64,000 nucleotides of DNA from Opitutus sp. GAS368. GTDB lineage: Bacteria; Verrucomicrobiota; Verrucomicrobiia; Opitutales; Opitutaceae. Within the stretch, counting starts at the first letter, position 1, and the number at the start of each line of letters is the position of its first letter. Below, piece by piece: positions 30,589 to 32,746 of the stretch. The DNA is taken from the NCBI RefSeq assembly GCF_900104925.1, contig NZ_LT629735.1:186001-250000 (forward strand). The letters run 5' to 3'. The notes under the pieces were generated by a model, which saw nothing but the letters and a program-made list of their open reading frames with translations, was not told the origin of the DNA and searched no databases. Made by a program: the position numbers and the translations under genes.

Positions 30589-30753
30589 TTACTTGATCTC
30601 CTTGTGCAGCGTGTGGCGCTTGAGGAAGGGATTGTATTTCTTCTTCTCGATGCGCTCGGTCACGGTCTTCTTGTTGCGCTTGGTGAGGTAGCGCGAAGCG
30701 GGTTTGCCCTCTTTGCGGGCTTCAGTGCACTCCAGTGTAACGGTTTCTTGCAT
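30589..30753 (-). CDS. rpmG: 50S ribosomal protein L33
   Basis: A 54-residue basic ribosomal protein. The sequence includes [20 protein letters not shown] and ends [14 protein letters not shown], the typical L33 end. Only one cysteine remains ([10 protein letters not shown]), so this is the zinc-free form of L33, not the four-cysteine form. It starts [12 protein letters not shown]. The gene stands alone on the minus strand between two palindromic repeats, with a terminator-like hairpin downstream. Confidence 0.95.
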
Positions 30754-30897: not shown

Positions 30898-32250
30898 TTA
30901 GGCACTTACCTTCTTTTCCGTCAGCGGCATCATCACTCCGCGACGGAAAAGCGTCACCTGCCCGGAGCTCGATGAGACGACCAGCGCAATGCAGTCGGCC
31001 GCCACGGAGATGGCCGCCGCTGCCGCATGCCGCGCGCCCAGCCCGCTGGGCAAGGCGTGGTTATAGTCTGAAGCCTGGATCAGTGAACCGGCTGCCTCCA
31101 CCACCCCGTCCCCGCGGATGACGAACGCGCCGTCGATGGACGAGAACTCCTTGATGGTCTCGTCCATGAAGGGATTCAGGATGTTCCGGTCCTCCTCCTT
31201 GTAGCCGTAAAAGGGATTGAGCACGAGCGGCTTGGTCAGCGTAGCGAGCTTCTCGCTGTCGCCCACGACGAACAGACAGCCGACCGGCCGGCCCTCGCGG
31301 CCCTCGACGGCGAGCTCAGTGGCCACGGCAATCACGCGCTCAAGCACCTCGGGCTTCACGTCGGGCGGCAGCAGGTCGGCGTGGCCGGTGAGCAGGGTCG
31401 AGAATTCCTTCTCCACGTCGACGATCACGATCGAGTCGAACTGGTTGCTGCCCGCCAGGCCGCCGACGCAGCAGATGCGGTCGTTGAAGGTGATCAGGCC
31501 GCGCGTGATGCCGACGAGCACCGCGCTGCGCAACTGCGCCATGCGCTGGCTGGAAAAGGAGCGGACCTGGATGCTGTCGTCGAAACGTCCGGGGCGGTCG
31601 TCGGTTTCCGACAGGTTGCGCGTCACGAGGATGGTCTTGAGCTTAGTGGTCCACTTCGGAGCCTTGAAACTGCCGGTAAAGGTGTCACCGAACACCATCA
31701 GCCCGGTGCAGCCGCTGCCGGCCGCGATCTTCTCGGACTCGCGCAGGACGACGCGGTTGACGCGGGTCTGCGGCGCCGCGACGGGCTTGGCCGCCATGCC
31801 GCCGAAGCCGGTGAAGAGCCGGTCATAAAGCGCGTCGAGGTCGGGGGCCTGCACGAGGCTGTCGACGAAATCCTGCTCCTTCATCAGCCGCGCCAGGGCG
31901 GCGAGCAACTGGAGGTAATCGCGCGTCTTCTCGTCGGCGATGAGCATGAACACGAGCCGCACCGGCTCGTTCTCCATCGCGCCGTCATAACGGATGCCGT
32001 AATGGCTGCGGCCGATCGCGAGAATGTAGCGCCGGCCCATCTTCACGCGCACGTGCGGCATGGCCACGCCGAGGCCGAGGTAGGTCGTCATCGTGTTCTC
32101 GCGGCGCAGCAGGCCCTTGAGCAGGGCGTCCTTGTTCAGGTCCGGGAAACGCTCAACCGTCAGGTTGAGCAGCTCGACCAGCGCGCCCTCCATGTCGGCG
32201 CTGCCGAGGTCGAGGACGCGGCTGCGCGAGATGTATTTGTCGAGCCGCAT
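30898..32250 (-). CDS. PTS EIIA domain fused to a DacZ-like diadenylate cyclase
   Basis: A 450-residue soluble fusion. Residues about 1-150 form a PTS fructose/nitrogen-type EIIA domain with the phosphorylatable histidine in GVAMPHVRV (H66). Residues about 165-345 form an alpha/beta domain like the N-terminal half of archaeal DacZ proteins. Residues about 350-445 form a DisA_N cyclase domain with the DGA motif (IDGAFVIRGDG, D373) and GLGARHAAAAAIS (403-415), the DacZ form of the RHR motif, then LVVSSSSGQV. It is predicted to make the second messenger c-di-AMP under control of PTS phosphorylation. The domain calls are from motifs; activity is untested. No neighbour suggests a pathway. Confidence 0.8.
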   Translation of the reverse strand: MRLDKYISRSRVLDLGSADMEGALVELLNLTVERFPDLNKDALLKGLLRRENTMTTYLGLGVAMPHVRVKMGRRYILAIGRSHYGIRYDGAMENEPVRLVFMLIADEKTRDYLQLLAALARLMKEQDFVDSLVQAPDLDALYDRLFTGFGGMAAKPVAAPQTRVNRVVLRESEKIAAGSGCTGLMVFGDTFTGSFKAPKWTTKLKTILVTRNLSETDDRPGRFDDSIQVRSFSSQRMAQLRSAVLVGITRGLITFNDRICCVGGLAGSNQFDSIVIVDVEKEFSTLLTGHADLLPPDVKPEVLERVIAVATELAVEGREGRPVGCLFVVGDSEKLATLTKPLVLNPFYGYKEEDRNILNPFMDETIKEFSSIDGAFVIRGDGVVEAAGSLIQASDYNHALPSGLGARHAAAAAISVAADCIALVVSSSSGQVTLFRRGVMMPLTEKKVSA

Positions 32251-32371: not shown

Positions 32372-32746
32372 TCACTTCTCCCATTCCAGTGCGCCCTTCT
32401 TCACCTCGTAGAAGAGGCCAAGCACGAGCACGAAGAGGAAGAACAGCATGGGCGAAAGGATCGCGATGTGGTTGGCGAGGAAATCGCGGTAGACGAACGT
32501 CCACGGGATGAGGAACACGACCTCGATGTCGAAGAGGATGAAGAGCATCGCGGTGACGTAGAACTTCACCGAGAACCGCGTGTGCGTGCTGCCGTCGGAC
32601 AGGATGCCACACTCGTAGGCCGCGTCCTTGATCTTGGTGTGCAACGCGCGCTGGCCCAGGAACTGGCTCGCGGCGATCACGACGGTCGTGATCCCGGCGG
32701 CCAGGACGACTTGGACCAAAAACGGCAGGTAGGCGGCGTAGCTCAT
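32372..32746 (-). CDS. nuoA: NADH-quinone oxidoreductase subunit A
   Basis: A 124-residue membrane subunit of complex I with three transmembrane helices. The conserved loop YECGILSDGSTHTRFSVKFY carries the family cysteine and the core YVTAMLFILFDIEVVFLIPW segment follows; the end is VKKGALEWEK. It is normally the first gene of the nuo operon, but no nuoB or other subunit lies downstream here: the next gene on this strand is the EIIA/cyclase fusion, 120 bp on. It therefore appears to be an isolated copy or a split operon. Confidence 0.92.
   Translation of the reverse strand: MSYAAYLPFLVQVVLAAGITTVVIAASQFLGQRALHTKIKDAAYECGILSDGSTHTRFSVKFYVTAMLFILFDIEVVFLIPWTFVYRDFLANHIAILSPMLFFLFVLVLGLFYEVKKGALEWEK

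Follow-up and report, generated by a model that had tools for sequence, protein, structure and literature searches.

Does the phosphorylation state of the PTS set c-di-AMP synthesis in a member of the Verrucomicrobiota? The question is raised by a single gene in the window, a 64,000-nucleotide stretch of the Opitutus sp. GAS368 genome (contig NZ_LT629735.1). A preliminary description of this DNA had read the gene product, which has 450 amino acids followed by a stop codon, as an EIIA domain, a middle alpha/beta domain, and a C-terminal DisA_N-type domain, that is, as a DacZ-type cyclase with EIIA in front. Profile searches bore out this layout. PTS_EIIA_2, DacZ_P, and DAC all scored above their Pfam cutoffs, which range from 27 to 27.4 (27 for DAC and 27.4 for DacZ_P), and the motifs that had been pointed out were located where they were expected: MPHVRV, which contains H66, in the EIIA domain and IDGAFVIRGDG (residues 372 to 382) and GLGARHAAAAAIS (residues 403 to 415) in the C-terminal domain. 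The best NCBIfam match was DacZ (4.1e-32), at 111.6 bits against an equivalog cutoff of 430 (NF041371). The scores for the other equivalogs also lay below their cutoffs, at 32.5 bits versus 225 for CdaM, 29.8 versus 188.8 for CdaA, 29.8 versus 225 for CdaS, and 18.2 versus 201 for DisA. A single DAC protein was found in this genome, which is one contig of 4.15 Mb. The features of the locus are collected in Table 1.

Table 1. Positions in the window of the fusion gene, its domains and key residues, and the adjoining genes
Feature	Position	Strand	Basis
EIIA-DacZ_P-DAC fusion gene	30898..32250	-	ORF, Pfam domains, frame kept in 36/38 order genomes
PTS EIIA type 2 domain, residues 16-144	31819..32205	-	PF00359, 80.3 bits
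H66 codon, EIIA phospho-acceptor by alignment	32053..32055	-	PH histidine of solved IIA-Ntr chains
Y112 codon, place of the second EIIA histidine	31915..31917	-	Alignment
DacZ_P domain, residues 164-285	31396..31761	-	PF21755, 60.5 bits; pyruvate kinase C-terminal domain fold (model)
DAC (diadenylate cyclase) domain, residues 314-439	30934..31311	-	PF02457, 75.8 bits
DGA motif, D373-A375	31126..31134	-	D373 in 121/121 aligned proteins
GARHA, residues 405-409 (RHR of CdaA/DisA, second R replaced by A)	31024..31038	-	Alignment
SSSSG, residues 426-430, at the place of SEETG	30961..30975	-	Alignment
nuoA-like gene, upstream of the fusion, 121 bp off	32372..32746	-	PF00507
Short ORF downstream, ribosomal protein L33 (rpmG) by eye	30589..30753	-	Sequence reading

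The three-domain fusion is real. Its entire reading frame is kept in 36 of the 38 genomes of the order Opitutales that were sampled and is therefore not a chance arrangement. The survey of the Verrucomicrobiota that had been proposed covered 240 genomes (20 of the same family, 18 others of the order, and 202 from the rest of the phylum) and found the full-length fusion in 20 of 20, 16 of 18, and 3 of 202 of these, respectively. The two order members that lack it (G102 and G143) gave no DAC match at all. Both genomes are nearly complete, and that of G143 (1.3 Mb) has kept EI and has no HPr match. The best Pfam E values for DAC in fusion-bearing genomes of the order ranged from 8.5e-17 to 6.3e-24, leaving aside G220, which carries a second DAC. 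Values were far stronger (8.8e-35 to 4.6e-41) in genomes from other families of the class, and the DACs of those families are taken to be CdaA-like on the strength of these matches.

The fusion is not confined to this group. A scan of genome contigs confirmed at least 543 relatives, and of the 80 that were listed, 76 align from query residue 15 or earlier; the scan favors fusions because the query was a full-length alignment. By record titles, relatives of the fusion occur in at least eight phyla: Verrucomicrobiota, Kiritimatiellota, Planctomycetota, Spirochaetota, Fibrobacterota, Hydrogenedentota, Myxococcota, and Walliibacteriota, of which Myxococcota and Walliibacteriota are represented by one MAG contig each, so that misbinning is possible. 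A Lacunisphaera MAG (L148) also carries the fusion. Shorter forms were seen as well. The genome G169 has a second DacZ_P-DAC gene without EIIA (L078:3750-4637) in addition to the fusion, and the DacZ_P-DAC protein of G114, whose match begins at residue 166, probably lacks EIIA.

A full-length AlphaFold2 model built from 40 sequences had a mean pLDDT of 81.9 and a pTM of 0.57; the individual domains are good, but their packing is uncertain. When domains of the model were compared with solved structures by VIA-align, residues 1 to 152 matched EIIA-Ntr proteins with Z scores of 19.6 to 21.1 (best 1a6j_A, Z = 21.1, rmsd 1.7, 147 residues aligned), and residues 156 to 283 matched pyruvate kinase (5ws9_A, Z = 14.6, rmsd 2.8, 121 aligned). 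The C-terminal part resembled both DisA with c-di-AMP (residues 292 to 443; 9y4s_D, Z = 16.0, rmsd 2.2, 125 aligned) and CdaA-AMP (residues 296 to 445; 8c4n_B, Z = 15.9, rmsd 2.7, 131 aligned). The C-terminal part thus matches the DAC profile, a mismatch with which would have refuted the preliminary description, and at the level of the fold it matches DisA/CdaA.

The middle domain had been correctly noted as present but was left without a name; it is DacZ_P, modeled with the fold of a pyruvate kinase C-terminal domain. Modeled alone from 62 sequences (pLDDT 83.4, pTM 0.79), it aligned with the C-terminal region of pyruvate kinase (5ws9_A residues 346 to 471, Z = 14.2, rmsd 2.8, 120 aligned), and all 50 matches listed for this model were pyruvate kinases. 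The best Foldseek matches listed were also pyruvate kinases by title, with the exception of 3khd, whose title is a gene name only. The C-terminal region of pyruvate kinase binds effectors, and the modeled fold suggests that DacZ_P is probably a second sensor in the fusion. The modeled fold agrees with the PK_C-like fold that parts of Braun 2019 (PMC6741144) predict for the N termini of DacZ and its close bacterial homologues.

DAC domains need head-to-head pairing and have DGA and RHR at the active site, as stated in passages of PMC8573169. In the fusion and its relatives, D373 of DGA is invariant, as are R407 and H408 in 119 of 119 proteins (the 121 aligned minus two duplicates). The full RHR motif is not present in the window protein, which has RHA; the second R is replaced by A in 34 and by S in 2 of the 36 order proteins, and 2 of the 119 aligned relatives have R there. 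At the place of the CdaA motif SEETG, the window protein reads SSSSG and has lost both acidic residues. S stands in for the second E in two haloarchaeal DacZ proteins and in 118 of the 119 relatives, none of which has E. The first E is kept by both haloarchaeal DacZ proteins and by 43 of the relatives; within the order, 2 of 36 proteins have it. Across the alignment, many other lineages have E or Q at this position, and the E is mostly gone in the order. Judged from these alignments, most of the departures from the DAC motifs are of the DacZ kind, and the loss of the first E appears to be a trait of the order that might affect metal binding.

DacZ is among the known cyclases closest to the fusion. 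The archaeal DacZ proteins of Haloferax and Haladaptatus likewise join a PK_C-like N-terminal domain to DAC (according to parts of PMC6741144) and share with the fusion the DGA motif, the R-H pair, the absence of the second R, and S for the second E of SEE. In contrast to the fusion, they have no EIIA, and they are 30 to 34% identical over 63 to 70% of the DacZ part. They also read RHH rather than RHA and keep the first E that the window protein has lost. The sequence GARHAAAAAI had been put forward as the form typical of archaeal DacZ, but the two haloarchaeal proteins read GTRHHAAAAIT. CdaA and DisA have in common with the fusion the DAC fold (in the model) and the DGA motif. They differ from the window protein, in which RHR has become RHA and SEET has become SSSS and which does not reach their equivalog cutoffs.

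The EIIA domain retains the residue on which a PTS input would depend. Among 117 EIIA-bearing proteins, 104 have H at position 66, 9 have Q, 2 have S, and 1 has K; the remaining protein has a gap there. H66 had the highest background-weighted information of 150 EIIA columns (weighted 85% H; 116 proteins), while by plain frequency it ranked ninth, behind E51, R50, L116, G85, P65, A120, G80, and G61. All 36 order proteins have Tyr at residue 112, which aligns with the second histidine of Escherichia coli IIA-Ntr; among the 117, this position is Tyr in 60, His in 33, and something else in 24. The second EIIA histidine is accessory and does not define EIIA type 2. Elsewhere in the Opitutus genome, a separate EIIA protein with the motif ALPHAR (L081:3155-3742) also has Tyr at this place; Tyr is therefore not peculiar to the fusion. 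Compared with EIIA-Ntr (PtsN), the fusion has the same fold, with the phospho-acceptor histidine in place and a genome in which no PTS_EIIC was found, and it differs in being joined to a cyclase and in having Tyr for the second histidine.

Partners for a phosphorelay are encoded almost everywhere. Of the 240 genomes of the phylum, 238 gave an EI match and 239 an HPr match, and the Opitutus genome has both. Since nearly every genome has them with or without the fusion, the relay is permitted but is not tied to the fusion. In the Opitutus genome, EI and HPr match their families across most of their length and keep their motif histidines (RTSH in EI and IHARPA in HPr). EI-Ntr of the nitrogen PTS carries a GAF domain, whereas EI of this genome has three EI domains and no GAF by Pfam. 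Another 48 genomes with the fusion were picked from outside the Opitutales set, and 47 of them have EI and 45 have HPr; HPr was not found in two (L085 and L122) although H66 is present, and the completeness of both genomes is unstated. The carbon supply invoked in the preliminary description does not appear to refer to sugars imported by PTS_EIIC (PF02378) permeases, since a search of the Opitutus genome turned up none. PTS_EIIC was found in 3 of 35 order genomes, and its absence here makes the relay look regulatory. The conservation of H66 together with a genome that encodes EI and HPr makes phosphorylation of H66 plausible.

Natural variants of the fusion speak to this point in different ways. 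One Wallbacteria genome (L140) has neither EI nor HPr, and the EIIA of its fusion lacks the PH stretch. Two genomes of the order family f3 have S66, with EIIA scores of 23.9 and 26.1 bits against the Pfam cutoff of 27 and DAC scores well above cutoff; both encode EI and HPr. Compared with four proteins of the Opitutus family, the f3 proteins are 26.5% identical in EIIA, 34.1% in DacZ_P, and 62.2% in DAC, while four other families of the order are 45 to 48%, 47 to 52%, and 66 to 72% identical in these domains. The divergence of DacZ_P in f3 nearly equals that of EIIA. No DAC match was obtained for G102, the third genome of f3, and the whole system may thus be fading in this family. The L140 and f3 variants fit a sensor whose use has ended. 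Nine proteins with Q66 behave otherwise. Eight come from Fibrobacterota and one from a bacterium without an assigned phylum, all nine genomes encode EI and HPr, and the EIIA of the one protein scanned (L102) is still recognizable at 77.7 bits. On a tree made by a quick method, Q66 requires at least four changes. The Q66 group does not fit a universal phospho-switch. Joint loss of H66 and the PTS was also considered as standalone evidence and was set aside: H66 is missing in 11 of the 48 genomes, and EI is missing in 1 of the 11 (chance probability, 0.23), so that the link depends on the single genome L140.

On balance, we are inclined to regard the protein as a DacZ-type enzyme that makes c-di-AMP and whose own chain includes two metabolic sensor modules that set its activity. 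Phosphate from PEP would pass through EI and HPr to H66 of EIIA, and the phosphorylation state of H66 would alter the packing of EIIA on the pyruvate kinase-like DacZ_P domain. This shift in packing would favor or hinder the head-to-head pairing of DAC domains that joins two ATP molecules into c-di-AMP, and DacZ_P might add a small-molecule input. The c-di-AMP made would then act on ion transport, for which one candidate is an Na+/H+ exchanger-type protein with two TrkA_C domains. We infer the catalysis, phosphorylation, coupling, and output of the fusion and leave the sign of the effect open. In light of what passages of PMC11808508, PMC7900238, and PMC8573169 describe, a change in DAC pairing upon EIIA phosphorylation is the simplest proposal. 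The link from the PTS to c-di-AMP that the preliminary description drew from the sequence is attractive and unproven, and osmotic or wall control, named there as the output, is likewise hypothetical.

EIIA could instead be a docking or allosteric module that needs no phosphorylation, with partners or unmodified EIIA setting cyclase activity through PtsN-like binding. The Q66 proteins, with EIIA recognizable in the one scanned (L102) and in genomes that have EI and HPr, speak for this, and Tyr in place of the second histidine throughout the order is in keeping with it. There is also a precedent in E. coli, where, as passages of PMC11808508 report, PtsN without its phosphate binds the K+/H+ antiporter YcgO and inhibits it. 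Pure docking, however, does not obviously demand a histidine at position 66 in 104 of 117 proteins over at least eight phyla, and we consider it rather unlikely. The conservation of an acceptor-type histidine across these phyla also argues against EIIA being a structural or oligomerization part without any signaling, as does the existence of DacZ_P-DAC proteins that do without EIIA (L078 and the two haloarchaeal DacZ proteins). Such a part could stabilize an oligomer, which would agree with the retention of the region in all 36 order fusions, and its decay is tolerated in f3 and L140; we nevertheless judge a purely structural EIIA improbable.

The cyclase end of the protein invites two further readings. 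The DAC domain of the window protein, in which RHR has become RHA and both E residues of SEETG are S, could be inactive or could serve as a nucleotide-binding sensor only. The second R and the second E are, however, absent from the two haloarchaeal DacZ proteins too, although these keep the first E, and DacZ of Haloferax volcanii is active with Mn according to parts of PMC6741144. Moreover, D373, R407, and H408 are invariant in a domain that is the sole DAC found in the genome, and we regard an inactive domain as very improbable. The flow could also be reversed, with c-di-AMP or the state of the cyclase controlling EIIA as a PtsN-like regulator of other proteins. EIIA-Ntr proteins do regulate K+ transport (passages of PMC6488665 and PMC7900238), but at least one separate EIIA protein in the Opitutus genome could do that job, and we give this reading hardly any credence.

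If the fusion is a synthase under two sensors, a broader possibility can be raised, although we do so tentatively and with some doubt. The fusion may be a hard-wired junction of a nitrogen-type PTS and c-di-AMP, each of which has its own established role in potassium control. EIIA phosphorylation (PEP to pyruvate) and an effector bound by DacZ_P would each take their signal from the PEP-pyruvate node, and between them they would determine c-di-AMP in at least eight phyla. An input from central metabolism to c-di-AMP would then sit within one chain. Passages from the Discussion of PMC7900238 pair PtsN with c-di-AMP in the control of potassium, where the two have similar tasks in different bacteria. 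The union of EIIA and the only DAC found in the genome in one protein allows a direct test of whether PEP-dependent phosphorylation sets c-di-AMP, for which the variants with Q66, with S66, or with the PH stretch missing are ready-made natural controls.

The fusion architecture is probably already known. Presumably, reviews of c-di-AMP list a cyclase class, DacD, with EIIA. Passages of Braun 2019 (PMC6741144) give DacD five representatives, namely, Lacunisphaera, Puniceicoccaceae, Coraliomargarita, a Verrucomicrobia bacterium, and an Opitutae bacterium, all from the group whose genomes usually have the fusion as their sole DAC. From these listed members, DacD would correspond to EIIA-DacZ_P-DAC. 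Because the DacD class is listed and Pfam holds DacZ_P, along with DacZ_A and DacZ_T, the architecture has very probably been catalogued. A limited literature search returned no EIIA-DAC fusion and no test of its regulation among the matches listed, and such a fusion may all the same have been described in print. The present analysis adds the breadth of the fusion, the conservation pressure on H66, its natural variants, the fold of the second sensor, and the PTS inventory.

Components that might receive or remove c-di-AMP were sought in the Opitutus genome. TrkA_C is a c-di-AMP site, and the Na_H_Exchanger protein with two TrkA_C domains (L174:1414-3759) is a possible c-di-AMP target. Three DHHA1 proteins were found, of which the one scanned has DHH and DHHA1 domains. 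The genome contained no PgpH-type 7TM-7TMR_HD protein and no RF00379 riboswitch, and the window gave no Rfam match.

Shared gene neighborhood was considered as a functional clue and rejected, as the recurring neighbors are lineage bound. The scan pooled 81 of 113 same-strand neighbors and matched 79 families, of which the 25 commonest were listed; 10 of the 81 were also scanned singly, as was one opposite-strand neighbor in L075. By BLAST, 28 other loci, all from Verrucomicrobiota, have a homologue of the nuoA-like gene immediately upstream of the fusion and on its strand; it appears to be a conserved neighbor, and no functional tie is implied. An acyltransferase-type cluster adjoins the fusion in 12 loci of the Fibrobacterota group and a PGI-type cluster in 10 loci (one member of each scanned singly), and fumarase is a neighbor in three spirochaetes (L089, L091, and L113). 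EIIA_2 matched 3 of the 81 scanned neighbors, all from Pontiellaceae, where two further EIIA proteins are encoded near the fusion. One is an amino-acid-permease-like transporter with a C-terminal PTS_EIIA_2 domain (L083:7510-9363 and L075:7882-9717). In Pontiellaceae B1224 (L075), an EI gene lies between the permease-EIIA gene and the fusion, in keeping with a PTS input to the latter; EI was not found in the stretch from Pontiellaceae B12219. The other is a Zn_ribbon_9-PTS_EIIA_2 protein encoded two genes upstream of the fusion (L083:3976-4818 and L075:2278-3120).
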